Shown piece by piece: positions 30,351-56,095 of a stretch of 64,000 nucleotides of DNA (the stretch's first letter is position 1; each line of letters starts with the position of its first letter). Both the position numbers and the translations under genes were made by a program. A model generated the notes under the pieces. The model ran no database searches. It was not told the origin of the DNA and was given only the letters and a program-made list of their open reading frames with translations. Where the stretch lies: the IMG/VR virus record IMGVR_UViG_3300021405_000012, positions 1 through 64,000 of that record. One strand, written 5' to 3'. The DNA is from a virus.

Positions 30351-30779
30351 TTAGTTGGCGTTCGGCGATGCTTGCACCGGGCCAGGTACTTGAGGGGGCA
30401 CTGGCACCTGAGCACAGCCCTCAACCGAGAGTGTGCTCTTTAAGCCTCCGCTGCCTACAGCTGCCGCTTCGTAATAGAGCGCGGTTGCCCCAGCCGGAAT
30501 GTTGTTGTCCTGAAAGGCCACTGTTCCGCCGTTTGATATCAGTCCGGTAGCGTAGGGCGTTGTCCCCTCGGCGCCGGAAGTCGTCGCGCGGTAAAGGTCG
30601 TAGCTGACCACTGTCGGCGGCTGCGTGGATGCCGCAAACGATATCTGCACACAGATGGCGCCCACGGGCTGGCCGGCGCAGCCCTGAGTGCCGATGGTCG
30701 AATTGCAGGTGGTGGCCGCGAAGGCGGCACCGGCGAGCACTAACAACGTGCTCAGCAGACTAATGATTGTTCGTTTCAT
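30351..30779 (-). CDS. exported fibronectin-like protein (142 aa)
   Basis: The N-terminus MKRTIISLLSTLLVLAGAAFA is a textbook Sec signal peptide with cleavage after AFA. The mature part has four cysteines (CNSTIG, GCAGQ, ICVQI, GCAQV) and a beta-sandwich pattern with SYDLYRATTSG, like a fibronectin III module. It ends in a Pro/Gln tail. An exported protein inside the virion gene block is unusual; it may act in the periplasm or on the cell surface. Confidence 0.7.
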   Translation of the reverse strand: MKRTIISLLSTLLVLAGAAFAATTCNSTIGTQGCAGQPVGAICVQISFAASTQPPTVVSYDLYRATTSGAEGTTPYATGLISNGGTVAFQDNNIPAGATALYYEAAAVGSGGLKSTLSVEGCAQVPVPPQVPGPVQASPNAN

Positions 30780-37434: not shown

Positions 37435-37607
37435 GCTCCCGCCTTCTCTTTCGCGTCGAAGATGGGATAGACCATCGCCAGCAGCTCCGCGATCGTAAAT
37501 TTCTCTTTCAGGCTGCGCAGCTCGACGGTGACATCGTGCTGACCGAAGAGGCCCACAGTGACCTTCATCACACTGCCGTCGGGCGCTTGATATTCCACAT
37601 CTGCCAT
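37431..37607 (-). CDS. small protein downstream of portal (58 aa)
   Basis: ATG 37607 overlaps the portal stop (TGATG) and has GAGGAGGAG upstream. The product MADVEYQAPDGSVMKVTVGL, then ELRSLKEKFTIAELLAMVYPIFD, is a compact alpha/beta protein without cysteine. The strong ribosome site and close coupling with the portal support a real gene, perhaps a minor head protein. Confidence 0.65.
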   Translation of the reverse strand: MADVEYQAPDGSVMKVTVGLFGQHDVTVELRSLKEKFTIAELLAMVYPIFDAKEKAGA

Positions 37608-39931
37608 CAGGCTCCTCCTCGGGGTGCTGCCGCAGGCGCAGCGCCCTTACCAGTCGCTGCGGGGTGGCCCAACGATCCTGCCCAGCCGGGAGCGCCTTCG
37701 CTCAGCATCGACTCCGCCTGCACTTCGCCAACATACTGCCGCGCGATGGTCAGATACGCCATCAGGGCTTGCCAGTTGGCCGGCTTCTTGCGGCGCTGAT
37801 CGTAGTTTTTCAGGGCGTAGCGCACCACCGTGGGAATGGTCACCGGAGTCAGATAGTCGCGATCGACGTCGCGGTCGGGCTCGACGATGGGCTTCTCGAC
37901 CGGCTGTCCGGTGGCTTCGTCCTGTCCTGGCACCAGCGGTTGCTGGGCGCCCATGATGGTCGAAATGTCTTTCAAAACCTTGTCGCGCGCGACCTGCTCC
38001 GGCAGTTCCATGTCGGGCGGCCCCAGGTAGAGCATGGCCTGGCGGCGGTTCTCGAAGGTGTCAAGCACTTCCATTACCAGCGGGTTTGGCTCTTTGCCGC
38101 TGGCCATGCCAACCAGCTCTTTGTAGAGCTGGCGCTGCTGGTCGTAGTCGATGGGATAGTCCTGATTGGCTTCCGGGCGTGCAATGGCTTTGGCGCGGAG
38201 ATCGACCAAGCGAATCGGCTCATTCATAAATTCCGGGGTGTCTTCGGATTTCGTGACCAGGTAGTCGTCTCCCGAGGCGTTTCCGGCAAAGCAGTCAACC
38301 GAGAGGTTCGCGCGCAGCGCCCACTCGTTCACTACAGCCTGGTAGTGGCCGCCTTCGGCGGCGCGGGCGGTATTCAGCGACTGTTGCTGGCCCATGCCGG
38401 TTTTGATGTTCTTGTCGGAGCCGCCCCACATCGAAGGATTCACGCCGACCAGCACCTGCACCAGCTGGAAGAGTTCCTGCAGCCACTGGTAGACGCCGTT
38501 GTCCATCTTGAAGTTGGGCTGCCAGCAGGTGTCTTCGAGTTTGCGTCCAATATCGCGGTTGGCGGCGACTGGCACCAGCGATCCCGCGGGAAGGTATTTG
38601 CCATTGAAGGCATCCCCCCACACAAAGGCGTCGTAGATGATGGGCGGATTGCCGGCGCGATCGTGAAATTCGTCGATCGAGTTGCCGCGATCGTTGATCC
38701 TGTCCTGGAAGTCGAGCGCGGAATGTACCGGCGCCGGAGGATATGCTCCCGCATCCTGTTCGGCTCCGCACCAGGTCCACTCTTTGGTGGCTTCCGCTTT
38801 GCGGATGTCGAGAATCGAGTTCTCCTGAATCACCGCCATGCAGCCATCGCCGATCTTGTCGGCCAGCTTCTGGATTTCCTCTTTCGAGGCATCGAGGCCA
38901 TAAATCGAGTCGGGATTGAACCACACCCGGTGATAGCTCAGCGTGTTCGGGCAGATGACCACTCCGCGCTGGGTGCCGGGCGTGAGGGCGCGGATCTGCG
39001 CGATGCGGGTGATTTCGGTGTCGGTGCCGGAAGTGTCGGCGTCGGCGGCGCGCAGCTTTTCCCAGGCTCCGGGATACATTCGCCGGTAGGCGCCCTTGGT
39101 GATCAGGCAGGATAGGTCGATCAGCGGGGTGTTGCCAATCACTCCCGCCCCTTGCGGCGAGGCCTGTGGCATGACTTCACAGTTGAGGATGTTCCAGGTA
39201 TCCCAGCGCACCTGGCCGTTCGGGACTTCGCGCTGGCCAGTCTGCACCGGAACCTTGATGCTCTTGCCGGGATAGAAATTCGCCGAAGTTAACGGACGTC
39301 CGCAACCGATGCAGGGCCGCTTCGAGTCAATGCTTTCAAGGTTGGCGGGAGTGGTCGCGCCGCAGCTGGGGCAGGTGTAGCGGTCGGGCAGAATTTGCTG
39401 GTCGGCCCAGCCCATGATGGGTTCGAAGTGCGTCCCGGTAATGGTCTTGTCCATCGACCAGCGGGTGTGCGTGAAATACGAGCCGGTCAAAAACAGGTAG
39501 TCAAGGCAGAGCGCGAGGAAACCTTTGTCCTGGTTGTCGCCGGCAATCTTGCGGTAGGCGCGGCCACGGGCCTGGGCGCAGCGGTTGTCGAGATCCGATT
39601 CCGAATCTCCCGGCCACCATTCGACCCGCGGCACCGCGCCGCCGAGGTAAGACGTCCAAACCCGGCGCAGCCATTGGATGATGTTCGCCGTCGACTGATA
39701 GATAGCTGCATCGTCGGTGCCCTGCTGAGTGCCTTCCGTCATCCCCGAGGCGGCATCGGAGCCAAAGGGGTTGTAGTAAGCGAACGAGAACGGGTCCCAG
39801 GAGATGTACTGGTTGCCTTTGTTGTACTCGATGGCCCGCAACACGTCGCGCAGCTTCATGCGCCGCGGAATCGCCCAGTCTTCGATGTGGCGGCGCCAGA
39901 TTTTGCAGAGATGGCGTTCGTAAGTCTGCAC
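37607..39931 (-). CDS. portal protein (P22-like, with zinc-ribbon insertion)
   Basis: The 774-residue protein has the wing, stem and clip organisation of podoviral portals, with VLRAIEYNKGNQYISWDPFSFAYYNPF near the start and VNPSMWGGSDKNIKTGMGQQQSLNTARAAEGG near 480-510. Cys187, Cys190, Cys207 and Cys210 (CPSC...CIGC) form an inserted zinc ribbon. The start is uncertain: the frame stays open ~57 codons upstream to a TAA near 40103, includes the homolog-like FFGTQNLGEVQTYERH, and contains a CTG, so translation may begin earlier. It forms the DNA channel at one capsid vertex. Confidence 0.85.
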   Translation of the reverse strand: MQTYERHLCKIWRRHIEDWAIPRRMKLRDVLRAIEYNKGNQYISWDPFSFAYYNPFGSDAASGMTEGTQQGTDDAAIYQSTANIIQWLRRVWTSYLGGAVPRVEWWPGDSESDLDNRCAQARGRAYRKIAGDNQDKGFLALCLDYLFLTGSYFTHTRWSMDKTITGTHFEPIMGWADQQILPDRYTCPSCGATTPANLESIDSKRPCIGCGRPLTSANFYPGKSIKVPVQTGQREVPNGQVRWDTWNILNCEVMPQASPQGAGVIGNTPLIDLSCLITKGAYRRMYPGAWEKLRAADADTSGTDTEITRIAQIRALTPGTQRGVVICPNTLSYHRVWFNPDSIYGLDASKEEIQKLADKIGDGCMAVIQENSILDIRKAEATKEWTWCGAEQDAGAYPPAPVHSALDFQDRINDRGNSIDEFHDRAGNPPIIYDAFVWGDAFNGKYLPAGSLVPVAANRDIGRKLEDTCWQPNFKMDNGVYQWLQELFQLVQVLVGVNPSMWGGSDKNIKTGMGQQQSLNTARAAEGGHYQAVVNEWALRANLSVDCFAGNASGDDYLVTKSEDTPEFMNEPIRLVDLRAKAIARPEANQDYPIDYDQQRQLYKELVGMASGKEPNPLVMEVLDTFENRRQAMLYLGPPDMELPEQVARDKVLKDISTIMGAQQPLVPGQDEATGQPVEKPIVEPDRDVDRDYLTPVTIPTVVRYALKNYDQRRKKPANWQALMAYLTIARQYVGEVQAESMLSEGAPGWAGSLGHPAATGKGAAPAAAPRGGA

Positions 39932-43423: not shown

Positions 43424-43597
43424 CTACTTCTTGACTCCGAGCCCGGCGGAGCACTCGCGGCAGTAGGCGAGCACGGTGTTCGCAGAGACGCAGACGCCAG
43501 TCCCACATTTGCCGCAAGGCAGAATCTTGGTCGGGTGCGGCAGCTCCAGGAGGTTGCTGGGGGCTGGAGCCACGTTCTGGGCACGCTGGAGGCTCAT
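43424..43597 (-). CDS. small zinc-ribbon protein (57 aa)
   Basis: ATG 43597 overlaps the deformylase stop (ATGA). The product carries a four-Cys zinc ribbon: CGKCGTGVC and YCREC, ending GLGVKK. Such minimal zinc proteins are frequent in phage late operons. Function unknown. Confidence 0.6.
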   Translation of the reverse strand: MSLQRAQNVAPAPSNLLELPHPTKILPCGKCGTGVCVSANTVLAYCRECSAGLGVKK

Positions 43598-44067
43598 GCG
43601 GTTCGCTCCAGGCAGGTCAGGCCGTCGAGGTGATCGAGTTCGTGCTGAATCGCGCGCGCGAGCAAGCCCTTGGCCTTCAGCTCGCGGGCGATGCCGAGTT
43701 CATCCTGGAAGGCAATCCATACGGTGGCAGCGCGTTCGACCATCATGCGCACGCCGGGGATGCTGAGGCAGCCTTCCGCCTGGCGCGAGTAGCCTTTCTT
43801 GCGCACAATCCATGGATTCACTAAGGCCATGTCCGGCCAGCCGGGCACCGCCAGCACGGCGATGCGCAGGCCATAGCCGACCTGATTGGCCGCGAGGCCG
43901 ATCCCGTGGTACCCCTTCTGCTTCATGGTTGCAAACATGTCCATGATGAGCGAGAAGTAGCGGCGATCAAACTCTACCACCCGCTCGGTCGGAGTCAAGA
44001 GTATCGGATGCGGATGCATCACGATTTGCAGGGCGGCACCACTCTTTAGTTCTGTAACCGGGTTCAT
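43594..44067 (-). CDS. def: peptide deformylase
   Basis: All three conserved motifs are present: GIGLAANQVG (residues 55-64), EGCLS (98-102, with metal ligand Cys100) and QHELDH (141-146, His142 and His146, Glu143 catalytic). ATG 44067 overlaps the endolysin stop; earlier in-frame codons would run into that gene. At 157 residues it is a compact form of the family, like those encoded by other phages. It removes the formyl group from nascent proteins and may speed processing of phage proteins. Confidence 0.95.
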   Translation of the reverse strand: MNPVTELKSGAALQIVMHPHPILLTPTERVVEFDRRYFSLIMDMFATMKQKGYHGIGLAANQVGYGLRIAVLAVPGWPDMALVNPWIVRKKGYSRQAEGCLSIPGVRMMVERAATVWIAFQDELGIARELKAKGLLARAIQHELDHLDGLTCLERTA

Positions 44068-44552
44068 AGCGAGGATTCTACCTCTGCCCAGAACGCTGCG
44101 GCGCCTTCGTTTTGGTAAATCTGCCGTGCTTCGTCGTTCGGTGCATTCACGGGGAAACCGCCGGTGAGCTGAAAATGCGGGGCGTCGACCAGCCGGATCC
44201 AGTTCGCACCCGTCGTAAGGCCTAGACTCACGCCTACAGCCTCCATCCGCTTCCACTGCGGGTGGGAGGCCTTCCAGTCGATCTCGCCGTTAACTACTTC
44301 CGGCTCGCAGTCAACGGCTACCCCAAGGCAATGCCAGCTTTGCCCGCCATCGGCGTCGGTGACGATGTCGCCGGGCAGGCTGCGGCCTTGTAGAAAAAGT
44401 GCGTGCTGTTCAGCCCAGGTGCGTGCGCCGGCGGAAACCACCAGCGCGATCGGCTCCGGGTCGAGGGCGAGGATCGCCGCCATCTGCCGAATCTTGTCGG
44501 CCAGAGCTGGCATGACATCCTGCAAGCGCGCTTCTGAGGCTGGACTAAGCAT
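44064..44552 (-). CDS. endolysin, M15/VanY-type D,D-peptidase
   Basis: ATG 44552 has GGAGG 3 nt upstream. Zinc ligands of the M15 family are visible: SWHCLGVAVDC (His74, Asp81), DAPHFQ (His126). A short motif SAGARTWAEQHALFLQGR (40-57) precedes them. No signal peptide or cell-wall-binding domain is present, so the enzyme probably needs a holin for export. It cleaves peptidoglycan stem peptides. The 162-residue length is normal for single-domain M15 endolysins. Confidence 0.85.
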   Translation of the reverse strand: MLSPASEARLQDVMPALADKIRQMAAILALDPEPIALVVSAGARTWAEQHALFLQGRSLPGDIVTDADGGQSWHCLGVAVDCEPEVVNGEIDWKASHPQWKRMEAVGVSLGLTTGANWIRLVDAPHFQLTGGFPVNAPNDEARQIYQNEGAAAFWAEVESSL

Positions 44553-45327
44553 CTTCCTCCGCGGCGAAATTGAACGGCGCCGACTTGCGCCCGTTCCAGT
44601 TCCCTCCAAACTGCGCATTCACCGATTCCAGATGGTAGCCCACCACTTCCGGGATCAGCGCACGTTTGGCGCGCGGCCACTGCGCCGCAAACAGCAGGTC
44701 GGTACGGCCCGCGTTGTTACTCTCGCCGGGATAGCGCCGCACTTTTGACTGGCCGGGATGCCACAGCTGAAAAAAGCCGATAGGGATATAGCCGCCAAAA
44801 TGTTCCTGCATCACCCGTGTGCCTACGGGAAACGCTCCCATGTGAATGTAGGCGCCGGCTTCCTGCTGCAAGGCGGGCAACTCTTTGAAGCGGTCCCAGG
44901 CCCGGAAGCCTTTCACGATGAAGCGGTCGGCGCCATAGACCATGCTGGGATCGAGGTTGGCGGCTTGCAGCAGTTTCCGGGTGAGCGGTGGCAGCCAGAT
45001 ATCGGCGTCGAGATGCACTACCCAACCCTCCATCGAGAGCGCGGACAGGCCCACATTGATGCCCGAAGCCTTGCAGAACGTCCCCCAGCGCGTGCCCAGC
45101 ACGTCGGTCGGGACACATTCGACGTGATAGAACTCGCACAGCCGCCGCGTGTCTTTGTCCTCGGCGGAGGTGACCACCACCATGCGGTCGAATAAATGCT
45201 TGTTCTCCGGCAGGGTGTTCCGCAGGAAGTCCGAGTAGTGGTCACACACCACCACTGCTTCGAGCCGGAAGTTCGGATCCGGTGCCGGAGCCGGCTGGGG
45301 ATCGACGTAGGGCTGAGGGGATTCCAT
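44545..45327 (-). CDS. glycosyltransferase, GT-A fold (GT2-like)
   Basis: Rossmann-like strands (RLEAVVVCDH, RMVVVTSAEDKDT) lead to the DxD motif HLDADIW (Asp107, Asp109) that binds the sugar-nucleotide metal. A later GYIPIGFFQLWHPGQSK region could form the acceptor side. The substrate is unknown. Placed beside endolysin and an outer-membrane-like protein, it may modify the cell surface rather than DNA. No membrane segment is seen. Confidence 0.75.
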   Translation of the reverse strand: MESPQPYVDPQPAPAPDPNFRLEAVVVCDHYSDFLRNTLPENKHLFDRMVVVTSAEDKDTRRLCEFYHVECVPTDVLGTRWGTFCKASGINVGLSALSMEGWVVHLDADIWLPPLTRKLLQAANLDPSMVYGADRFIVKGFRAWDRFKELPALQQEAGAYIHMGAFPVGTRVMQEHFGGYIPIGFFQLWHPGQSKVRRYPGESNNAGRTDLLFAAQWPRAKRALIPEVVGYHLESVNAQFGGNWNGRKSAPFNFAAEEDA

Positions 45328-45888
45328 CTACCAGCCCAGTTTCAATCCGCCTGAGAGGATCACTGCCGAGCTATTGAAGCCGGGCAGGTGGCCGTAACGC
45401 AGCTCGAACAAGTTGACGGTGAACTTGCCATTCGAGGTTGGGCTGTAGGCAACCCCGCCGCCGAGCATCTCGCCGACATTCTGCTTGGTCTTGTTTTCCT
45501 GGGAATTGATGCCGGCGCCGATGCTGGCCGTGAAGTAGGGCTGGAACTGGTTCGGACTCAGTTTGGTCTTCGCAATCTGTTTAGCGAAGAAGCCGGGCGC
45601 CCAGTTGAAGCCGCCGAAGTAGCCTTGCCAGCTGGCCGAGGGCGCGAGGATGTTCTCTTGGCGCAAGGCCACCGTGTTGGTCAGTTGCAGCGTGCCCCCG
45701 AAGTCGGCGGCGGCGGTCGAGCCGGAGACTACGTTGCCAATCTGCATCACGCTGGCGTTGAGCGAGAAGGTGCTGGTCGGAGTCACGGTCACCGGGGCCT
45801 GGGCCGGAGGCGGCGTGGGTACGGTGGTTTGGGCGATCGCCGGCACCAGGCCAGCGAACAGGACAAGCAGGCGGACAAAGTTCTTCAT
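45328..45888 (-). CDS. exported beta-barrel-like protein
   Basis: MKNFVRLLVLFAGLVPAIAQ is a Sec signal peptide, followed by a Pro/Thr linker. The mature part has alternating strands (LQLTNTVALRQENIL, FQPYFTASIGAGIN, GKFTVNLFELRYGH) and ends ILSGGLKLGW with an aromatic final residue, the usual BAM recognition form for outer-membrane barrels. Superinfection exclusion by surface masking is a reasonable inference. Confidence 0.65.
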   Translation of the reverse strand: MKNFVRLLVLFAGLVPAIAQTTVPTPPPAQAPVTVTPTSTFSLNASVMQIGNVVSGSTAAADFGGTLQLTNTVALRQENILAPSASWQGYFGGFNWAPGFFAKQIAKTKLSPNQFQPYFTASIGAGINSQENKTKQNVGEMLGGGVAYSPTSNGKFTVNLFELRYGHLPGFNSSAVILSGGLKLGW

Positions 45889-45948
45889 CGCATTCTCCTT
45901 AAAGGTTGTGAATGGTGCTGCTTAGAGTTGACAAAAGACGTGCCACAT

Positions 45949-46170
45949 TCAGCGCGGGCAGCGCAGGACGGTGTTGCCGCTGCGGGCGTCGATTTCGATA
46001 TCGAATTTGTCGCAGGCACAGCTCACGATGGCGAGGCCGGGATCGAGACGGCAATCCTGCAAATGCACCGCGCCCAGCCGTCCCGCCGGCAGGTTCATGG
46101 TCACCCGCTTGGCGGCGCAGCCCAACAACAGCAGCCCAAGAGCGGCGGCGGCGGTCAGACGCAAGCCCAC
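45949..46170 (-). CDS. small lipoprotein (73 aa)
   Basis: The N-terminus MGLRLTAAAALGLLLLGC is a lipoprotein signal with lipobox LLGC. The mature part has four further cysteines (DCRLD, SCACDKF, RCPR). It could be an o-spanin-type lipoprotein or a periplasmic partner of the neighbours, but it lacks the Pro-rich region of classical Rz1. Confidence 0.65.
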   Translation of the reverse strand: MGLRLTAAAALGLLLLGCAAKRVTMNLPAGRLGAVHLQDCRLDPGLAIVSCACDKFDIEIDARSGNTVLRCPR

Positions 46171-46172
46171 GG

Positions 46173-46394
46173 TTAGCCTTGAGCGGCGCGGGCCACGCTG
46201 ACGTTCGCAGCCTGTGGGCCTTTTGGGCCCTGGACTACGTCGAAGGTGACTTCATCGTTCTCGGCCAGGCTTTTGTAGTCGCCCTGCTGGGCGTCGATGG
46301 CGGTGTAATGCACGAAGATGTCCTTGCCGCCCTCGGCGGGGCTGATGAAGCCGTAGCCCTTGGAATTGTTGAACCATTTCACGCTACCTTGCAT
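46173..46394 (-). CDS. csp: cold-shock protein
   Basis: The 73-residue product has both RNP motifs, KGYGFI (12-17) and DIFVHYTAI (25-33), with the start [13 protein letters not shown] and end VSVARAAQG. It is a single-strand nucleic-acid chaperone by family. Cold-shock genes are occasional phage cargo. The gene lies 2 nt before the lipoprotein gene and 3 nt after the next gene. Confidence 0.93.
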
Positions 46395-46397
46395 AGA

Positions 46398-46637
46398 TCA
46401 GTTCTCCTTTTTTGCAATCTCATTGCCGCGGTTGGGCAGCATGTAGAAACCCCGCGCCACCATCAGCGCGGCCGCGACTCCGGTGGCGGCGTAGTGCTCC
46501 CAGCATGCGGCAGTGTAGCAATTCCCCTCCGAAGCGGCATGCACAAAAGCGGCGACGAAGCCACTCGCGACTGCCACGATGGCAGCCTGCGCCTGGTGCG
46601 GCAGGCTGGCCCAGAACGCCTTACATTTTGCGATCAT
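46398..46637 (-). CDS. two-span small membrane protein, holin candidate (79 aa)
   Basis: ATG 46637 has GGAGGAG upstream. Two hydrophobic segments, AAIVAVASGFVAAFVHAAS (~17-36) and AATGVAAALMVARGFYML (~50-67), separated by a short acidic loop with two cysteines, and a charged C-terminus (NRGNEIAKKEN) fit a class II holin. Its proximity to lysis genes supports this, but no family is clearly met. Confidence 0.55.
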   Translation of the reverse strand: MIAKCKAFWASLPHQAQAAIVAVASGFVAAFVHAASEGNCYTAACWEHYAATGVAAALMVARGFYMLPNRGNEIAKKEN

Positions 46638-46833
46638 CAGCTCCTCCGTGGTGTTTCTGGTGACAGGCACAAGGGGAGGAGTCGCCATGCTCGCAGGTGT
46701 CATGCAGGCCGAGTATGCACCAAAAGCACATCATCGCCGCGAAGCGTTTGCGGGGCTTCTTGCGCTGCCGGGGCCAGTCATGCTCGATCCAGCGGCCATA
46801 AGCGACCTGGTTTCCGTTTTCAGTTTCAGGCAT
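46621..46833 (-). CDS. small Cys/His protein (70 aa)
   Basis: ATG 46833 overlaps the previous stop by 8 nt. The C-terminal half is Cys/His-rich (CFWCILGLHDTCEHGDSSPCACHQKHHGG), probably zinc-binding. The N-terminus is polar with Lys/Arg. Function unknown. Confidence 0.5.
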   Translation of the reverse strand: MPETENGNQVAYGRWIEHDWPRQRKKPRKRFAAMMCFWCILGLHDTCEHGDSSPCACHQKHHGGADDRKM

Positions 46834-47134
46834 GGCGGCGTTGTTCAAGTGCGGCCAGGACGGCCAGCGATGAGGCCATCTGCTGGCTGGTGTCGGTAAG
46901 TTTTTCGAGCAGCCGGGTCTGTGTCTGCAAGGTCTGGCCAAGCCTGCCGTTGATGACTTCGATCATGGTTTCGCGAATGAAGCGCTGCCAGTACTCCGAG
47001 CTGCGCTCCGACGCCGGTTCTCCCCGCACGTCCTCGGGGTCCTCCGGCCGGGTAAACCTGCGGCGGACGAGGGGCACAGCAATGGCGGCTGCAACGGAGC
47101 CGCCGATGGCCGCGCCAATGGTTCCCCAATCCAT
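46826..47134 (-). CDS. membrane-anchored coiled-coil protein (102 aa)
   Basis: An N-terminal membrane span (TIGAAIGGSVAAAIAVPLV, 5-23) is followed by Arg-rich RRRFTRPED and a long helix with QTLQTQTRLLEKLTDTSQQMASSLAVLAAL. This is the shape of i-spanins and of other small phage membrane proteins. No clear family match. Confidence 0.55.
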   Translation of the reverse strand: MDWGTIGAAIGGSVAAAIAVPLVRRRFTRPEDPEDVRGEPASERSSEYWQRFIRETMIEVINGRLGQTLQTQTRLLEKLTDTSQQMASSLAVLAALEQRRHA

Positions 47135-47200
47135 GGCTAGTTGGCCTTTCGGGTAGACTGTCTCGGCACCGAAATTAGGCGCAGAAAGAGGTATGAATCA

Positions 47201-47275
47201 ATGAAGCGAGTAGCCCTTTGTTTGTCGGTTTGCATTTTATTGCTCACGCTCACGCCATGGCTAACACGCCGGTAA
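47201..47275 (+). CDS. candidate signal-peptide-like leader peptide (24 aa)
   Basis: ATG 47201 is preceded by AAAGAGG with an intervening short frame. The peptide MKRVALCLSVCILLLTLTPW is strongly hydrophobic, like a signal or anchor peptide. It overlaps the next small frame at 47257. Support is weak because of its size. Confidence 0.3.
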   Translation: MKRVALCLSVCILLLTLTPWLTRR

Positions 47276-47361
47276 GCGTGAGTGCGCTCGCTAACGTGTG
47301 TGGAGGCGGTGGCACTGCTGCGTTCGACATCATCATTGGGAGGATCAAGATCAACCCGTAA
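47257..47361 (+). CDS. tiny plus-strand protein (34 aa)
   Basis: ATG 47257 opens a 34-residue frame (MANTPVSVSALANVCGGGGTAAFDIIIG) that stops 3 nt before a strong terminator. It has no ribosome site of its own, and could be coupled to the 24-residue leader. The terminator placement makes transcription likely, the coding status less so. Confidence 0.35.
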   Translation: MANTPVSVSALANVCGGGGTAAFDIIIGRIKINP

Positions 47362-47403: not shown

Positions 47404-49308
47404 TTAGTTCGCGGTGACCGGCTCGAACGTCAACATGTTGATGATGGGGGCGGTGATGTTCTGTGAACCACTCTCGGCCGCGTTGACCGAAACCCACAAA
47501 CCTTTGGTTAGATCGAGGGCGCTTGAGGCTGCGGTACCCACGTCCGCCCCGTTCACGAACGTGGTTTGCGCCGAGTTCTTCACGTTGAAAAACGGGAAGG
47601 GAGTCTCTGCCCACAATGTCCCACTGGTCCCAGTGGCAGCTGTCGAGAGCTTCCAACATCCGCCCTGAGTTCCTGCCGTCGTCTGCGTTTGAGTCGCGAA
47701 GAGAACAGCCGACACGGCCACCGGAGACTGAGCGTAATTATTGCTCATGTTCAAGTTGTAGGTCAGGATCGAAGAGGCCACCTGGGTAGCAGTCGCCCCC
47801 TTAATGCACAGATTCCAGGACTTCTGCAGCTGGTTGAGAAAGCCCGCGGGGAGGTAGAACTGGGCCAAATCTGCGTTGCTGTTGTTGATAGTGCCGCCCG
47901 CGGCAAACGGAGCGAAGCTGGTCTGGAAGTTCAGCGGAGGATTCGAGAACGCCTGGTAGCCGAACAGGGTGTGCGCAGTCGATTCCACCACCGGCTTCGA
48001 AGTCGCCGAAGGGTTGCCGGCGGTGATGACCGCCGGGGAGCCGATGGCGCATGCCGGAATCACCGTCTCCAGCGTCGACAGCGGACAGATATTCGAGTCG
48101 ATGGTCTGCTTGGCCAGGATTTCGGTGTTGGTCGCGCCGCCGTTGGCGGTGATGTAGGGCAGCCAGCCACAGGCACCGGCGGTGGCCACTGGCGAGCTTA
48201 GCGACATGCCGGTAATGGTGCCAGACTGCGCCGACTCGGTCGAAGGCAGCGAGATTCCGCCCAGGCAGTCCACATACGCGGTTTTGGCGTAGTAGGCGCC
48301 CGAGGTCAAGCTGCCAGTCGCGGCGGTAATGGTCGAAGCCGCCGCCGCGGCAATCAGGGTAATCGTGGTCGGACGCAGCGCGAAGTACAGCGGCTGATTG
48401 AAGCCGTTGGCTTGCGTGGCCTGCACGATGCAGCCGGTGCCGGCGGCGAGGGATGCCGTCTGCACCAGGTAGGTCAAGGTGGTGCCGCCAGAGCCGCCCG
48501 AAGCCAGCGCGAAAGTCGAGCCGTTGCCACCTTGGCTGCTGTTATAGCCGGTGGGAGTGCAGTTCGATACCACCAGGCCGTTGCCGCCGGCAAATGAAGC
48601 GGCGAAGTTCGAGCCGCTGACCGTGGTCAAGGTGACCGTGTTGGTCGAAGCCGTGGCGGTGACCGCGGTCTGGGTTCCGGGAATGATGGCGCCCGGCGCG
48701 GCGCCTTTGGTGTACTCGATGACGATGTTGGGTACAGGCCCTGTGGCCGCCGTGGTGGTGGCGTTCAGGATCTGCTGGGTGGTGATGCCTGAATAGTTGT
48801 CGACGGTGACGTAGGCGGCGCCCAGAATGGCGGCATCGTTGATTGCTTCCATCAAGCCGTTGTCTCCCGAGACGATGCGCACGCCTACCGCATGGGCGTT
48901 GGCAAAGGTCGCGGTAAAGCCGCAGTTGAAGGGATTGACGGCGCCGATGCCGGCCGGAGTCGGAGTAGTGACCGCGGTCGGGGTTACCGTCTCAGTGTTG
49001 GCTCCGTCGATGACGGTGAGAGGAACGTCGGTCGCGTAGATGGCCGCGAACGGAGCAAAACGGTTGTTCGAGCCGACCGGCACAAAGCAGGTATCGACCG
49101 TCATGGCGCCCGCGCCGGCGGCGACTGCGGTGAGGCCTTTCACGCTCCAGTTGCCGTAGCCGGAAGCCATCACCCGGCCAGCCTGGTTCGAGGGGTACTG
49201 CGGAATAACGCTCTGGGCCAAGCCGAACGAGACCAGAGTCAACAGAGTGAGGCATGCGCCCGCCAGTCGAATACGGGCGAACGCCGGAACTAGCGAGCGT
49301 GGGTTCAT
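47404..49308 (-). CDS. exported tail-spike-like protein (634 aa)
   Basis: A Sec signal peptide lies at the N-terminus (LAGACLTLLTLVSFGLAQS after a basic start). The mature part is Thr/Ser/Ala/Gly-rich with repeated short beta segments and several cysteines, for example DTCFVPVG, FNCGFTATF and ICPLSTLETVIPACAIG. The repetition of T-A-x-A-T-x-T-V-T-L patterns looks like a fibrous or spike protein. Signal peptides are not expected on virion proteins, so it may be exported for display instead. Confidence 0.65.
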   Translation of the reverse strand: MNPRSLVPAFARIRLAGACLTLLTLVSFGLAQSVIPQYPSNQAGRVMASGYGNWSVKGLTAVAAGAGAMTVDTCFVPVGSNNRFAPFAAIYATDVPLTVIDGANTETVTPTAVTTPTPAGIGAVNPFNCGFTATFANAHAVGVRIVSGDNGLMEAINDAAILGAAYVTVDNYSGITTQQILNATTTAATGPVPNIVIEYTKGAAPGAIIPGTQTAVTATASTNTVTLTTVSGSNFAASFAGGNGLVVSNCTPTGYNSSQGGNGSTFALASGGSGGTTLTYLVQTASLAAGTGCIVQATQANGFNQPLYFALRPTTITLIAAAAASTITAATGSLTSGAYYAKTAYVDCLGGISLPSTESAQSGTITGMSLSSPVATAGACGWLPYITANGGATNTEILAKQTIDSNICPLSTLETVIPACAIGSPAVITAGNPSATSKPVVESTAHTLFGYQAFSNPPLNFQTSFAPFAAGGTINNSNADLAQFYLPAGFLNQLQKSWNLCIKGATATQVASSILTYNLNMSNNYAQSPVAVSAVLFATQTQTTAGTQGGCWKLSTAATGTSGTLWAETPFPFFNVKNSAQTTFVNGADVGTAASSALDLTKGLWVSVNAAESGSQNITAPIINMLTFEPVTAN

Positions 49309-49374
49309 AGTGTCATTTCTCCTTTGGGTTGGGTGACGAGAGTTACGAGAAAAGTTACGTGCGAAAGAAAGAGA

Positions 49375-49794
49375 TCAGGGGCGTATGCCCATCAAAGTCC
49401 ACTTGTAGTCATCGCCGGCAAAGCCCGGCGCGGCGCCGAGCGCCATCTTGCCAGTCTCGGGCGCAACCACGCCGATGCCCTGATGAGTGACATCGCTGGT
49501 ATCGGTGTAGCGGTACATGCGAAGCGGAAACTCAGTCCAGGGATCGCCGTTGAATGAGTAGGACGCTCCCCCGACGCAGAGGTAGCCGTAGTTCGCTGGC
49601 GAGCAGTTCAGATAAAGCGCGATCCAGTCGCCCTTTTGGACTTTAATGGTGTGGAACAGCGACACCCTGGTTTCCCCGCTCTCGATCAGAAACAGATTCG
49701 AGAACGCAGCCGGGCCCGCCTGAAGCGGACGGCTCTGGGCGAAGGCTGGCCCCACCAAGCAGCAGCTGGCTATGAGTAGGAGAAGCGCCCGCAT
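49375..49794 (-). CDS. exported protein (139 aa)
   Basis: ATG 49794 overlaps the stop of the 1339-residue gene (TGATG). MRALLLLIASCCLVGPAFAQS is a signal peptide; the mature part is beta-rich with LYLNCSPANYGYLCVGGASYSF (two cysteines, likely a disulphide). Grouped with the spike-like genes. Function unknown. Confidence 0.7.
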   Translation of the reverse strand: MRALLLLIASCCLVGPAFAQSRPLQAGPAAFSNLFLIESGETRVSLFHTIKVQKGDWIALYLNCSPANYGYLCVGGASYSFNGDPWTEFPLRMYRYTDTSDVTHQGIGVVAPETGKMALGAAPGFAGDDYKWTLMGIRP

Positions 49795-52700
49795 CAGTTG
49801 GCCTGGATAAGATTGCAGACCGCGTTAGCCAGCACTTGGATGGTGCCCGCAGCAGCCACGTTCGAGGTATCGAGAGTCATGGCGCCGGCGCTTGAGCCAT
49901 TCTGAATCTGGGCGTTGACGTGGAAGATGGCCGTGCCCGCCAAGGCGGCGCTGGCTCCGGTCTTGGTCGATACCCAAGTGGTTTGCGCGATGATGTTCTG
50001 ATCGGAATATGCGCCCGCCGTCCCGATTGCGCCGTACATGTCCAGGTTGTAAGAGGTCGGAGTGCCCGGCCCCACCAGTCCAAAGGCCACGGTCGCCGTC
50101 GACGTCAGGGCTACCGGGATTTCGCAATCCAGGCGATAGTTCTTGCTGGCAATCAGGGTCCAGCTCATGCCGGTAATCGCCGTCAGTGTGGCCGAAGCCT
50201 GCGTGCCCATGCTGGTGGCGAGAAAGCCGGTGGTGGTATCGACGTAGCCTGCGGCTTTCATCGTGCCGGTGGTCACCAGTTGCGGCGACGCGCAGTTGGC
50301 TGCAAGGAAGGTTAAGCTTAGTACGCTTGAGGCCCCCACCTGCCAGTCGAAATCTTTAGAAAGCGCCCCGGCCTGGGTGCAGGTGATGTTGTGAAAGAAG
50401 GAAGCTGTTACCACCCCCGACGTGTTCCACGTAGCAGTCGAGTAGACCAGCGCCGGGAAAATCTGCGTGCCGGTCAGAGAGTTACTCATGTTGAGGGCAC
50501 TCGCGGTCGAACCGGCTAACGTCGTCAATTGCAGCTTAGCTTGTCCGCCAGCCGCGCCACCCGTTGCGGCGTGGCCTGCGGTCTCTCCCATCTGAAAAGA
50601 GACGTGGTTGTTGGTGGTCATGCTGTCTTGCCAGATTTGCTGGGTGTTGCCATTGGCGAGGGTGTTGGTTCCAAGCGCGGCCTTCAGCGAAGAAATGGGT
50701 ACCGTGCATCCGGTGCATACCCCGGTGCCTACGTTGATCCCGCCAGGGAAGCTCTGCACTGCCGCAATGTCGGAGTTCAGCACAAAGCCGGTATTGCTGG
50801 GCTGCCCGTTGGCGAGCGAGTCGCGGATGTAGTGCATGACCGGACTGGTCACATTGGTAGTCTGTCCGGTTGCGGCGTTCAAGACATCATCGAGGATCTC
50901 GGTTGTCCCCCCACCGCCCGCCGCCATGGTGACATCCGCGCTGGGGACGTTCTGGTCCAGGTGGATGGCTACCGCGGAGCTGCGGAACTGGCCTGAACAG
51001 CAGCGCACCATAACGTTGCGGACGGTAATCGAGGTATTGACCACAAACAGGTTCTCGATGGCCGCTTCCGCGTCGAAGTTTTCGATGACCCCGCCCAGCG
51101 GCTCGGCCAGTGACGACGTCAAAGAGTGTTCCACTTCGATGACCGCGCGGCCCAGCACCGAGGTGCCTTGTGCGGGCCCATAGCTGCTATCCGCGGAAGA
51201 GTGGAATGCGCCAACATCTTCGAACAGGCGGTGCATCTGGTAGTCGGTGTTCTGTCCCAGACAATGCCCGTAACGCAGGTTGGAGTTTTGCGCCCCTGGC
51301 CCAAACAGGTATTCGCAGCCCGCGCCGGCGTCGGCAATCACGATATTGTCGTCCTGGGTGGCTTCTTCGCAGGACTGGTTAAACAGGCCCCAGGAATCGG
51401 GTTCGAGCACGTTGAGGTTCTTCGCCAGTTCAAGCTTGAGTCCACCCACGCGAGCTCCGTAACAGCCGCCCGGCCAGTTCGGCAAGAGTGCCGGCCCACC
51501 CAGCTGGACGAGGATCTCGCTGGCATTGTGAGTAGGTACGCGGTTGCCGTTGTTGTTGATGGTCGTCATCGTCCAAGTCGATCCCGGAGCGCAGACACGG
51601 CCATACGGCAGCGAACCTACATAGGCGGAGCAGACGAAGTTGATGCCGTCGGGAACTTGTTCGAGGTTGTTGGCGGAGCCTGCGCCACTGGCGCCATTGC
51701 TTGCCCACATGATCCAGCCAGCGGCGTTGTTGACACCCGTAGTCGGGAAGGTGCCTTGCACCGCCTGCCCAGCGCTCCACGAGCCGTGCGCGAAGGCGGT
51801 CTCGGCCAGCGCGTTGCCGGGACCGTTGGCGGTGACTGGCACAGCCTGGAGAAAGAGGTCGTTGGCCGGATTGAGGAATAAGACGTTCGGTTGCAGGCCC
51901 GCGCTCGAGGTCGGGCAAGTGTTGGTCGCAGGGCAGCTGACTGCCGAGGGCGCTGCTTGGGCGGGCAGGAAGGTAGCGCCATCGCCGCCCGCAATGACGG
52001 TCGTGAAGTTGAGCGCGGTCTGGTTGGCGTTCAGCGTCCCTTTGAAGCCAGCGAAGCTGGTGCCGGAATTCCAGGTGATCTGCTTAAAGCCGCCATTCAG
52101 GGAAAGCAGGCTCTCGAACGGGCTCAATGTGGTGTTGATGCAGGAAGCGCAACCACCGCCGCCCGAAACCTGCTGCGACCACTGGTTGGCAAAACTCACC
52201 GCCCCGGTTGCGACAAATACTCCATACTGCGGGCTGACCAGCGTAGTCTGGCCGCCCATCGACATCCAAGTACAGCCGGCATCCACGATGACGTCACCCA
52301 GCTGGCCGCTGCCGGAGTCGGCGGCGAAGGGATTCGAGCCGGTGCCGCCGGTGCAGCCTTGCGCTACTCCCGAGCCGTTGGCGGTGATGTTTTCCCACGC
52401 CGTAGCCGTGCCGGAATCGTAGATCATCGCCTTAGCGGCGTAGGCAGTGCCAGCGCCGGCATTGTTCGACCAGGCCGAGGCCACGTAGCGGATTTCCCAG
52501 GCCTCGGTGCCGTCGGTGCAAAGCGAGCCGACGGTGAAGGCCGCACAGCCACCCGAAGGGAAGCTGCCGCCGGAACTCGAGATGCCCACCGCCGTGGCAA
52601 CCAGAATGTAAAGCGTTCCGCCGCTGACTACAGCGATGCGGTTGCCCTGGCAGGAGTGCGCGGTGCTGTTGCCCCAGTAAAGGACGCTCGGCGCCCACGG

Positions 52701-53813
52701 CCCAAACTCGGCGTGCATCACCGGAGTTGAGAGCTTGACTGCCTGGGTGCCAGAAACAAAGGCGGGGAAGGTATGCGGCGGCCCAATGCTAACAATCTGA
52801 TCTGAGCCGGTGCAAGCGTCGTAGAGCGCGTAAGCAACAGTCAATGACTGGCCGATGGTGCCCGCGCCTGCAATCTCCTGTCCCAGTGGTTCCATCAGCG
52901 TGGGAATGCCGTCCGGGAAGCCGGAGCCGCCGGTAATCTGCGAAGTGTTGCGGTTTAAGCCTAAAAGTGTCGGATAGTTCCCGGTCACCCAAGGCACGTT
53001 GGTCACGAACGGGCCGGTGCCGATATTCAGCGAGACGCTCGAAACGATCAGGCCGTTGGTGTTTGCCGGCGGCGGCGTGGGGCCGGCATTGAAGCCGTAA
53101 GTGTTGGTCGCCGCTCCGATGAACGGGCCAACTCCGTTGGAGCCGCTGATGAAGAGGTTGGTCGTCGAAGTCGAGGCCAGCACGAAGTTCGAGCAGTTGG
53201 TTCCCTGGCATTCGCCCACTTCGTAGGCGTAGGCACCGGCCAGCGTGGCCGCGATCGGCGAGACCACGGTGAAACACTGGTTGGCGGCGGTGACTGGGAT
53301 GTTGGCTTGCACCGCCGAGGTCGCAATATCGCCTGGGCGATCGAGCACGTAGAGCACAACCGAAAGCGGGCTGCCGTTGGTCAGTGCAGTGCGGCCGCCG
53401 CAGGTTCCGGTGAGGGCTACCGTGGGTGCGGCTGGAACTTGGGGGTTACCATAGGGGTTGCTGGCGACGTTGACGGTCTGCCCGTTGGGCGGCGACCAGG
53501 TGATGCTTCCCCCCATGGTGCCGAAATTGTTGGCCGGATTCGAGAGCACGGCGCCGGGGTTGGCGACAGCGGTGCCATCGACAAAGAAGCTGCCGCCGGT
53601 GCTAGAAGCGCCGAGACTGACCACGCCGTTGCTGTACGCACAAGTCAGGCCAGCTACGCAGTTCAAGGTCGCATAGCGGTTCAGCGTCACCAGCGGCGTT
53701 CCCGCTTGCTGCATTTGCAGGGTAAACACGGGCGGCTTGTTCTGAGCTGCGATTGGCAGCACTGCCAGCAGGCAGAGGAGTGCGACTCTGAGCACGCGAA
53801 GCATAGGTTTCAT
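49794..53813 (-). CDS. large exported tail-spike-like protein (1339 aa)
   Basis: ATG 53813 starts MKPMLRVLRVALLCLLAVLPIAAQ, a Sec signal peptide; the in-frame upstream extension overlaps the previous gene. The mature protein starts NKPPVFTLQMQQAGTPLV and is composed of beta-rich modules with many Gly, Ser, Thr and frequent Cys (TLNCVAGLTCAYSNG, ECQGTNCSNF, DACTGSDQ, ASCINTT), as expected for a disulphide-stabilised extracellular protein. It resembles a tail spike or fibre in composition. A polysaccharide-binding or adhesive role is likely; no catalytic motif was identified. Confidence 0.68.
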   Translation of the reverse strand: MKPMLRVLRVALLCLLAVLPIAAQNKPPVFTLQMQQAGTPLVTLNRYATLNCVAGLTCAYSNGVVSLGASSTGGSFFVDGTAVANPGAVLSNPANNFGTMGGSITWSPPNGQTVNVASNPYGNPQVPAAPTVALTGTCGGRTALTNGSPLSVVLYVLDRPGDIATSAVQANIPVTAANQCFTVVSPIAATLAGAYAYEVGECQGTNCSNFVLASTSTTNLFISGSNGVGPFIGAATNTYGFNAGPTPPPANTNGLIVSSVSLNIGTGPFVTNVPWVTGNYPTLLGLNRNTSQITGGSGFPDGIPTLMEPLGQEIAGAGTIGQSLTVAYALYDACTGSDQIVSIGPPHTFPAFVSGTQAVKLSTPVMHAEFGPWAPSVLYWGNSTAHSCQGNRIAVVSGGTLYILVATAVGISSSGGSFPSGGCAAFTVGSLCTDGTEAWEIRYVASAWSNNAGAGTAYAAKAMIYDSGTATAWENITANGSGVAQGCTGGTGSNPFAADSGSGQLGDVIVDAGCTWMSMGGQTTLVSPQYGVFVATGAVSFANQWSQQVSGGGGCASCINTTLSPFESLLSLNGGFKQITWNSGTSFAGFKGTLNANQTALNFTTVIAGGDGATFLPAQAAPSAVSCPATNTCPTSSAGLQPNVLFLNPANDLFLQAVPVTANGPGNALAETAFAHGSWSAGQAVQGTFPTTGVNNAAGWIMWASNGASGAGSANNLEQVPDGINFVCSAYVGSLPYGRVCAPGSTWTMTTINNNGNRVPTHNASEILVQLGGPALLPNWPGGCYGARVGGLKLELAKNLNVLEPDSWGLFNQSCEEATQDDNIVIADAGAGCEYLFGPGAQNSNLRYGHCLGQNTDYQMHRLFEDVGAFHSSADSSYGPAQGTSVLGRAVIEVEHSLTSSLAEPLGGVIENFDAEAAIENLFVVNTSITVRNVMVRCCSGQFRSSAVAIHLDQNVPSADVTMAAGGGGTTEILDDVLNAATGQTTNVTSPVMHYIRDSLANGQPSNTGFVLNSDIAAVQSFPGGINVGTGVCTGCTVPISSLKAALGTNTLANGNTQQIWQDSMTTNNHVSFQMGETAGHAATGGAAGGQAKLQLTTLAGSTASALNMSNSLTGTQIFPALVYSTATWNTSGVVTASFFHNITCTQAGALSKDFDWQVGASSVLSLTFLAANCASPQLVTTGTMKAAGYVDTTTGFLATSMGTQASATLTAITGMSWTLIASKNYRLDCEIPVALTSTATVAFGLVGPGTPTSYNLDMYGAIGTAGAYSDQNIIAQTTWVSTKTGASAALAGTAIFHVNAQIQNGSSAGAMTLDTSNVAAAGTIQVLANAVCNLIQAN

Positions 53814-53833
53814 GGGTTTGATGGAAAGGGAGC

Positions 53834-56095
53834 TCAGTTGCCGAAGCATCCCCAGAACAGGTTGCCAACATCGCCGCCCACGCTCGAAGTGAACGTGACT
53901 TCGACCGTCGAGCTGGTGTAAGAAAGGATTCCCGTGACCGAGCCGGTGAGGTTCTTGTCCCAGAGCGCGAAGCATCCCGGAGCGTGGTTATAAGTTCCGC
54001 TGAGATTGATGGCACTGCAATTTGTCCCCAGAGTGCAGATGCCGGAGTCGGCGATCGCTACGCTGCGCTGAAACTGCTGGGGATTCTGATACTGCGCGGT
54101 GCAGAGTTGGGCCGCGGTTCCGCCCAGGACGTTGATAGTGGCGGTGGCCGCCGCCGTTCCGCCCACCAGGTTGGCGCAAGGCAGCGAAGCCAAGCTATTG
54201 TTGCGGGCGCTGAAGTTGACGGTGGTGGTGGTGGAATCCTTGATCACGCCGGTCGAGGGCGTGTTCAAGGCCGACTTGGCCTGGATGAAGGCGTCTTTGA
54301 TGGTGAAGAAGGCGCCTTGCGCGTTGAACCAGAAGTCGCTGCCGCTGGCGCCGGTCGAGTCGTCTTCGATCACTCCACCGTCCTGGAAGTAGTCCACGGG
54401 GCCGCGCAGGGCGTGCGCCGAGGAGCCAAAGAACAGCTCAATGTGCGGACTGTAGAGCGAGAGCTGGGCACAGCAGGTGGTGTTGTTGTTGTAGTCGAAG
54501 GCGTAGGTCGGCGTCCCAATGAACGAGGTCCCGTAAAACGTCATTTCGGAAGGAAAGCAGCCGGCCCCGCAGCCGCTCGATCCGGTGGGCGCGGCAATGT
54601 AGGTCACGCTCGATGCGAACTGGCCGCCATAGACATCCTGCGTCGAGACGTTCCCAATCACCCAATCGGTGGTGTTGAACCAGAAATTGGGATTGATCCA
54701 CGTCACCGGCGCGGAATTGAAATTGTTGGTGTAGTAACCCTGGCTGAAGCCGGCGACGGTGACGTTCTCCATGGTGGCGCCCATGATGCCGTTATTAGTC
54801 GCGCCGGTCATGATGCCAGTGGCCGAGCTGGTGCCGGTGTATTGGCCGATCAGAGCGTTCACCAGGACGATGTTTTTGAGGCCATGCGCCCCAGCCGCAG
54901 CCGAAGTGGTCGCGGTGGCGTAGTCAAGGGTGATGGCGCTGGTTGCAGTCAGTGGGGTGTAGTTCAGGCAGCCCGACCAGGTCCCAGTCGCGCCCGCTGC
55001 AATCAAGCCGCCCGAGCCCCCGGATTCGAGCAACACATACTTCCCGGCCGTGTTGAGCACGATTGGCGTCGAGTAGCTATAGCAGCTGCCATCCGCCTTC
55101 GGGGCAATGACGATGTGGCCGCCCTTCACGCCCAGTGCCGCGTATGCAGTGTTGATCGCGCAGCCGATGTCGCCGCCGCAGAGGGTGAGGTACTGGTCGG
55201 CGTATTGCACATTCTCGATGGTGGTCGAGAAGATCGAAGTCGCCGTCAGCGCGCCGGCAGCGATGTTGCCGAGCAGGAGTGGCACGTTGGTGCCGCCGGG
55301 AATGATGGTGGCGCCGCTGAGGTCAAGCACGCCTTTGATGGCCAGGCTGGTGCCGCCGAATACGGTTACCGCGGGCGCAGCCGAATAGCCGGTGCCGCCC
55401 GCTGCCACGGCGCAGGCGGTCAGAACGCCACCGCTTACCGTCGAATACAGCAGGCCACCCGTCCCCAACCCTGAAATCTGTAGTGCGGGAGGGCTTTGAT
55501 AGTTCGAGCCACCCGCAGTGACCACGCAGCCATTGATGGCCCCCCCACCGGAAACCGTTACTGTGACGGTGGCGCCGCTGCCGCCGAGCGGCTGGTTGAT
55601 AACCTGCGAGCTCGTGGGATTGCCGAAAATCGTCTGAAAGCCTGGCGCCGGCGGAGAGTTCGGGCCCAGATTGAACGGTGTCGCCCCATTCAGGTTCCAG
55701 GCGAGCGTAGCCACGCCATCGGCGCAGTTGGTGGTGGTCGAGCACAAGTCGTAGTCGAGGTCGCCGGCGATCGGCGTACTCGAATCGAGGTAGGCGGTGA
55801 CGTGCCACAGCGTCGAATACGAGTTGCCGCAAGTGATCTCATTGTTCGCGTAGATGGTGGCGGGCAGCTGCGAGGGGAGCAGCACCAGGTCCTTGGCAAC
55901 GATTGAGAGACCTCCGCCGGTCACCACCGGCACGTTGTAGCCACAGTAGTTCAGGTGCAGCTTCAGGAAGGCGTACTGCTGGGGATTGCCCTGAGCGTCG
56001 GTGAGGGTGGCATTGACGCTCACCGTAGCCCCGGCGGACGCAGCTAGGGCCAGCAGAACGAGCGGAACGAGCATTTTGCGGAGGCTGGTGATCAT
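53834..56095 (-). CDS. exported beta-helix-like spike protein (753 aa)
   Basis: ATG 56095 begins MITSLRKMLVPLVLLALAASAGA, a signal peptide, then TVSVNATLTDAQGNPQQYAF. Modules such as GGSNYQSPPALQI and GGTGYSAAPAVTV are typical of phage spikes. The central part (IGCAINTAYAALGVKGGHIVIAPK onward) alternates like a right-handed beta-helix with a pectate-lyase-type fold. Cysteines are frequent. It lies upstream of the larger spike-like gene with a 20-nt gap. No active-site motif could be confirmed. Confidence 0.68.
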   Translation of the reverse strand: MITSLRKMLVPLVLLALAASAGATVSVNATLTDAQGNPQQYAFLKLHLNYCGYNVPVVTGGGLSIVAKDLVLLPSQLPATIYANNEITCGNSYSTLWHVTAYLDSSTPIAGDLDYDLCSTTTNCADGVATLAWNLNGATPFNLGPNSPPAPGFQTIFGNPTSSQVINQPLGGSGATVTVTVSGGGAINGCVVTAGGSNYQSPPALQISGLGTGGLLYSTVSGGVLTACAVAAGGTGYSAAPAVTVFGGTSLAIKGVLDLSGATIIPGGTNVPLLLGNIAAGALTATSIFSTTIENVQYADQYLTLCGGDIGCAINTAYAALGVKGGHIVIAPKADGSCYSYSTPIVLNTAGKYVLLESGGSGGLIAAGATGTWSGCLNYTPLTATSAITLDYATATTSAAAGAHGLKNIVLVNALIGQYTGTSSATGIMTGATNNGIMGATMENVTVAGFSQGYYTNNFNSAPVTWINPNFWFNTTDWVIGNVSTQDVYGGQFASSVTYIAAPTGSSGCGAGCFPSEMTFYGTSFIGTPTYAFDYNNNTTCCAQLSLYSPHIELFFGSSAHALRGPVDYFQDGGVIEDDSTGASGSDFWFNAQGAFFTIKDAFIQAKSALNTPSTGVIKDSTTTTVNFSARNNSLASLPCANLVGGTAAATATINVLGGTAAQLCTAQYQNPQQFQRSVAIADSGICTLGTNCSAINLSGTYNHAPGCFALWDKNLTGSVTGILSYTSSTVEVTFTSSVGGDVGNLFWGCFGN

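Follow-up and report, generated by a model that had tools for sequence, protein, structure and literature searches.

Conserved signal peptides and even cysteine numbers suggest that a soil phage lineage exports its spike-like proteins

Tailed phages are taught to assemble wholly in the cytoplasm. What, then, is a run of spike-like genes with Sec-type signal peptides (SPs) doing in a phage genome? The window analysed here (G000) is 64 kb of the 67,854-base virus record IMGVR_UViG_3300021405_000012, and it encodes a terminase (PHROG 979), a tyrosine integrase (PF00589) and a block of structural genes on the minus strand. The original prediction described four consecutive genes at 47404-56095 as encoding mainly large spike-like proteins, each with an SP. 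The four genes are indeed present, all on the minus strand and with high coding scores in gene finding; g53, g55 and g56 are large, but g54, with only 139 aa, is not a large spike. The features referred to below are as follows.

47404..49308, minus strand: g53, predicted secreted spike-like protein of 634 aa, conserved from end to end in five relatives
49216..49308, minus strand: g53 predicted signal peptide, residues 1-31 (rule-based SP test)
48760..49176, minus strand: g53 N-terminal domain, residues about 45-183 (AF2, Foldseek, cysteine pair C74 and C129)
49375..49794, minus strand: g54, predicted secreted protein of 139 aa with two conserved cysteines (LNCSPANYGYLC)
49738..49794, minus strand: g54 predicted signal peptide, residues 1-19 (SP rule with the upstream ATG 49794)
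49794..53813, minus strand: g55, predicted secreted fibre-like protein of 1339 aa, ATG 53813, N-terminal domain conserved and rest divergent
53745..53813, minus strand: g55 predicted signal peptide, residues 1-23 (rule-based SP test)
53550..53744, minus strand: g55 conserved domain behind the SP, residues 24-88 (cysteine pair LNCVAGLTC; alignment with k15 and m37)
53834..56095, minus strand: g56, predicted secreted spike-like protein of 753 aa, domain of ~150 aa behind the SP kept and remainder swapped
56027..56095, minus strand: g56 predicted signal peptide, residues 1-23 (rule and family alignment)
55577..56026, minus strand: g56 conserved domain behind the SP, residues 24-173 (C51 and C89 invariant in 5/5 family rows)
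55346..55585, minus strand: g56 GGxGY-type repeats, residues 171-250, common to baseplate and virion PHROGs
30351..30779, minus strand: g27, small predicted secreted protein of 142 aa with 4 cysteines, within the tail module
37607..39931, minus strand: g34, portal-like, without SP, the reference gene for finding kin

All four proteins start, as predicted, with the features of a Sec SP, namely a positive n-region, a hydrophobic core and small residues at -3 and -1. Up to the predicted cleavage they read MNPRSLVPAFARIRLAGACLTLLTLVSFGLA (g53), MRALLLLIASCCLVGPAFA (g54), MKPMLRVLRVALLCLLAVLPIAA (g55) and MITSLRKMLVPLVLLALAASAGA (g56), with Q as the next residue in the first three and T in the last. 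These calls come from our own rule-based test and not from SignalP. The g53, g55 and g56 proteins pass it, and g54 does so from the upstream ATG 49794, which overlaps the g55 stop codon by one base, a pattern of coupled genes. For g56 the rule alone places the cleavage at residue 18 and the family alignment at residue 23. The rule is also passed by 265-298 of 2000 shuffles of the window's N-terminal residues (13-15%), a rate that lends something to the idea that the hydrophobic N-terminus is a virion or membrane anchor and that the proteins stay in the cytoplasm. The rule being loose on its own, it is conservation that bears the SP claim.

Relatives were found among IMG/VR contigs. G001 (3300044713_000119), G002 (3300005439_000214) and G003 (3300036884_000163) were recovered by a portal query together with a query of the g56 N-terminal domain, after which their capsid proteins proved 77%, 46% and 48% identical to that of the window, and their portal-like proteins 65%, 49% and 49%; scans of the viral contigs with the single proteins g56, g55 and TerL had given no relative. 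The reference gene g34 has no Pfam or PHROG match, so that it is called portal-like from its length and its place in the gene order. A g53-family search led to 14 loci, including G004 (3300043787_000193), a further close relative with 49% identity in the capsid and 39% in the portal, and the more distant contigs G006, G008 and G012. These four longer contigs were read whole, the shorter ones only near the match. Two scans of bacterial genomes found no relative; from the style of the SPs we guess that the host may be acidobacterial.

For each of the four window proteins, a related contig encodes a homolog that also carries an SP. In the g53 family the homologs k28, m41, n53, G004g52 and G006g18 all have an SP, so that it is retained in 6/6 rows (G000-G004 and G006), as it is in 5/5 rows of the g56 family, at identities of 29-59%. 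The association extends to a whole class of genes. In G000-G003, SPs were found in 19/19 large proteins (200 aa or more) of low charge, with a cut-off of 10% KRED picked after the genes had been viewed, versus 2/80 other large proteins, both lipoprotein-like; in eight contigs, with the cut-off at 11%, the counts were 31/36 versus 7/138, smaller genes being left out of both comparisons. The five SP-less members of the 36 are the nozzle-like G004g30 and G012g47, together with G012g54, G008g05 and G008g18. The seven SP-positive others are k13, a spike slightly above the cut-off, the lipoproteins k25 and m44, the scaffold gene G004g41 with a mis-called start, and G004g22, G006g36 and G012g06, which look membrane-like or due to chance. 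A later cut-off of 11.5% adds k13 to the low-charge class; the G000-G003 count had placed it with the other proteins as lacking an SP, its SP start being further upstream than the range examined. The SPs of m48, n63, n49 and m49 use an in-frame start that differs from the gene finder's choice.

The trait is thus not confined to one cluster, as had been proposed, since it marks almost all spike-like genes of large size and low charge in G000-G004 and G006. Within the window, g27, g29, g47, g48 and g59 also have SP-like N-termini, and g17, g42, g50 and g66 satisfy the rule yet resemble membrane proteins. The g47 product, encoded close to the cluster, is a weak PagL-like barrel. The pattern is mixed further away: in G012 the SP-less g36 and g54 stand beside spikes with SPs, and a fibre-like protein of G008 lacks an SP. 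Export is therefore not universal, and both kinds of spike can coexist in one phage.

The cysteines offer a second line of evidence. An even cysteine number is given as a mark of DsbA-type disulfide substrates in the part of PMC7678975 consulted. Across the eight contigs, the mature SP-bearing spikes contain 2 to 44 cysteines, and this DsbA-substrate mark is found in 29/31 of them (binomial p 2e-7), the odd ones being m36 (3) and n63 (37), versus 50/92 large proteins without SP and with at least two cysteines each. Because the SP-bearing spikes are partly homologous, we also sampled one random member per homology cluster, and a mean of 15.5/17 was even (p about 0.001). With the 11.5% cut-off, 30 of 32 are even. 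Cysteine content is 2.1% for SP genes and 1.0% for the rest in the G000-G003 gene set.

Furthermore, SP and cysteines change together in the g53-type domain, which several contigs of distant phages carry between terminase and portal, with an SP in L025, L027, L028, L029 and L036 and without one in L030, L031, L033, L034 and L035; G008 also has the domain without SP. In a set of 15 domain sequences (L031 is nearly identical to L034, and its copy L032 was omitted), exactly two domain cysteines are present in 9/9 SP-bearing members and none or one in 6/6 SP-less relatives. The domain tree is weak, with 3/12 inner branches well supported. The even counts and this link speak against a cytoplasmic anchor, as do two properties of the N-termini: those of unrelated families are alike in features and not in sequence, and sequence conservation begins after the predicted cleavage site. 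We consider the anchor quite improbable. Passage to an oxidising compartment, in contrast, accounts for the presence of SPs, for even cysteine numbers and for the joint change of SP and cysteine pair, and g53-g56 are very probably exported and oxidised in the periplasm. The export half of the original prediction is accordingly strongly supported, by SPs in divergent homologs, even counts and the SP/cysteine-pair co-change.

Are these proteins spikes? None of g53-g56 matches Pfam, and PHROG matches were obtained for g56 only, at residues 171-250 (phrog_2885, E 2.5e-7; phrog_460, E 4.9e-6). Its homolog k29 of G001 (47% over 173 aa) shows by eye the fibre repeats TKQYVDNG and TTVATTAFV, weakly matches a beta-helix (Pfam E 1e-3, under the curated cut-off), and contains stretches resembling a prophage hyaluronidase (E 4.5e-4) and a Streptomyces phage tailspike (E 1e-4). 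For g53, AF2 gave a model with a pLDDT of 55 overall and about 60-87 at residues 45-183; with E values of about 1e-4 and low TM-scores, Foldseek matched it to a pre-neck appendage protein, the phi15 spike and the KP34 capsule depolymerase. A PDB fold search with g53 returned weak jelly-roll/lectin-like and GH43 matches at an rmsd of about 10-22, which we set aside. The g56 model (pLDDT 36) was discarded, and no relevant PDB entry matched the g56 domain in a sequence search. One SP-less protein of G012 fuses a g53-type domain to a typical fibre repeat, a hint that this domain is itself a fibre component. From these partial matches, the SP-bearing window proteins appear to be fibre- or spike-like.

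Family architecture points the same way. A conserved N-terminal part with a swapped remainder is the usual pattern of receptor-binding proteins, and in the g55 and g56 families the part behind the SP is common and the rest swapped, as in tail fibres and spikes with a conserved N-terminal domain and variable C-terminal modules. The g56-type N-termini occur in G000-G004, where k29, m49, n65 and G004g20 match g56 in the N-terminal region only (m23, which misaligned when included, was left out of the alignment). The g55 N-terminal domain was found by alignment in G000, G001 and G002 and by eye in G004g45; k15 of G001 matches g55 at 38% over 84 aa (residues 5-88) and keeps both cysteines of the pair, m37 keeps the second only, and G004g45 has a pair at the equivalent place. 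Only the C-terminal tip of k15 is shared by n49 of G003. The g53 family, unlike these two, is conserved along its full length (k28 of G001, 47% over 203 aa). The small g54 has a counterpart in G001 only, k16 (40% over 70 aa), whose N-terminus also looks like an SP.

Could the genes be chance-carried host or unrelated genes, or gene-calling artefacts? The lack of an INPHARED match for g55 and g56 and of a plasmid match for g53 would fit such an origin. However, orthologs lie amid the same structural genes in independent phage contigs, and this, with the high coding scores, makes it hardly credible. The SP-bearing spikes are on the portal strand in 32/32 cases, and some sit among structural genes, m23 between homologs of g23 and g24, and k13-k16 between homologs of g37 and g38.

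Where the exported proteins go is a harder question. The original prediction offered display on the host surface or spike assembly in the periplasm, and the sequence evidence separates neither fate from the other. The proteins could be exported and never become virion-bound, acting as adhesins, depolymerases or superinfection blockers on or from the host, in lysogens or during infection. The identical SP and cysteine evidence supports such a role; the window phage carries an integrase gene, as do at least some members of the lineage; the weak barrel g47 bears some resemblance to lambda Lom with its place in a set of tail genes (PMC12309495, as far as the part consulted goes); and the layout is like that of the MAT fibres described in the consulted part of PMC10769870, which consist of an SP, a conserved domain of about 130 aa rich in beta structure, and diverse tips. 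Since the phage looks temperate, a surface or secreted role fits the evidence nearly as well as docking on the virion does, and we regard it as a serious possibility somewhat short of an even chance. Against it, G000-G004 retain the g53 and g56 families no less firmly than structural genes, the spikes lie on the structural strand and partly within head and tail modules, and these contigs offer no other clear receptor binder: once the nozzle-like g24 family is set apart, no large protein of low charge that lacks an SP remains as a candidate. The receptor binder could still be g24 or a small conserved protein. Because g53 and g56 belong to the core gene set of the five close contigs, on the structural strand and with no clear competitor bar the nozzle-like protein, we favour a model in which the exported spikes join virions at or after lysis, to which we give about an even chance.

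This docking model would run as follows. Spike and fibre proteins of this soil phage lineage would be made as Sec pre-proteins; that they cross the inner membrane, shed the SP and form disulfide bonds while folding in the periplasm is strongly supported at the level of sequence. Judging from the architecture, docking would fall to the conserved domain right behind the SP, and the binding or cutting of surface glycans to the exchanged C-terminal regions. The SP-less heads and tail cores would be assembled in the cytoplasm. Lysis would then bring particles and spikes together, with the spikes docking last, a step that may equally well hold or fail. In extracts, finished heads of P22 can acquire their tailspikes, which makes late docking chemically reasonable. 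As a whole, Sec export, periplasmic disulfides and docking at lysis form the best explanation, in which our confidence is evenly divided. A full split of assembly, with head and tail core made in the cytoplasm, the whole receptor-binding apparatus passing through Sec and oxidised by the host, and the virion completed at or after lysis, is put forward more tentatively.

The likeness to known phage proteins lies in parts: the KP34 K63 depolymerase and the phi15 spike resemble the g53 N-terminal domain in its predicted fold, and the phage-associated hyaluronidase resembles a stem stretch of k29. Phage tailspikes, depolymerases and the phage hyaluronidase are not known to be made with SPs. The closest known parallels are bacterial. 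According to the consulted part of PMC10769870, Bdellovibrio MAT fibres are likewise phage-tail-fibre-like and exported, with diverse C-terminal tips, but they are encoded by a predatory bacterium whereas g53-g56 are encoded by a phage beside structural genes; the likeness is one of layout, the domains being compared by description and not by homology. WceF of Pantoea stewartii, in the portion of PMC7949094 seen, is also exported, a glycan enzyme with a tailspike fold (beta-helix trimer), but it travels by Tat and not by the predicted Sec route, and it is a bacterial biofilm gene. Lambda Lom is likewise a phage gene with an SP amid tail genes and expressed in the lysogen, but a small outer-membrane barrel and not a spike-like set (PMC12309495, in the part consulted). 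The open-licence literature on SPs in phage fibres, spikes, receptor-binding proteins or Acidobacteria phages, in the portions consulted, yielded no exported phage spike set.

In conclusion, exported and disulfide-bonded spikes, if true, would either break the rule of cytoplasmic assembly or show remodelling of the host surface by phages on a large scale. The even cysteine count, together with the link between SP and cysteine pair, provides a simple screen for exported spikes in the genomes of uncultured phages.

A lipoprotein-like family (k25, m44 and n56) is conserved in three related phage contigs, G001, G002 and G003, close to the spike genes, and the window has just g48, a lipoprotein-like protein of 73 aa. 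Small secreted proteins, FN3-like by eye, are located near tail or spike genes in the window, in G003 and in the more distant relative G012, and their cysteine counts are all even.

Features of the window and of related phages
G001 25742-26356, minus strand: k25
G002 45760-46383, minus: m44
G003 46726-47304, minus: n56
Window 30351-30779, minus: small secreted protein, 4 cysteines
G003 50284-50685, minus: small secreted protein, 2 cysteines
G012 46636-46989, plus: small secreted protein, 2 cysteines
Window 44545-45888, minus: g46, GT2-like glycosyltransferase, and neighbouring g47
Window 43594-44513, minus: peptide deformylase (PF01327, E 2e-39) and adjoining M15 peptidase
Window 11465-22000, minus: 3511 aa protein adjoining terminase genes
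L041:4918-6159 (phage G004), minus: secreted protein with GloVer tandem repeats (TIGR03803, E 3e-70)
Window 4962-6149, minus: tyrosine integrase (PF00589, E 3e-26)

The g46 product is 65% identical to m16 of G002 and g47 weakly matches a PagL-like outer-membrane barrel; the two possibly form a pair for surface modification. The M15 peptidase is likely an endolysin, and the GloVer protein is a possible pointer to the host. The 3511 aa protein, cysteine-free beyond residue 30, matches stretches of DNA methyltransferase and of RNA ligase in PHROG, and related giants (2055-4155 aa) are found in G001, G002 and G004.

Within the integrase, residues 200-258 match an FtsK gamma domain (PF09397, E 4e-18). 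This arrangement suggests that a Xer activator may be built into the phage recombinase.
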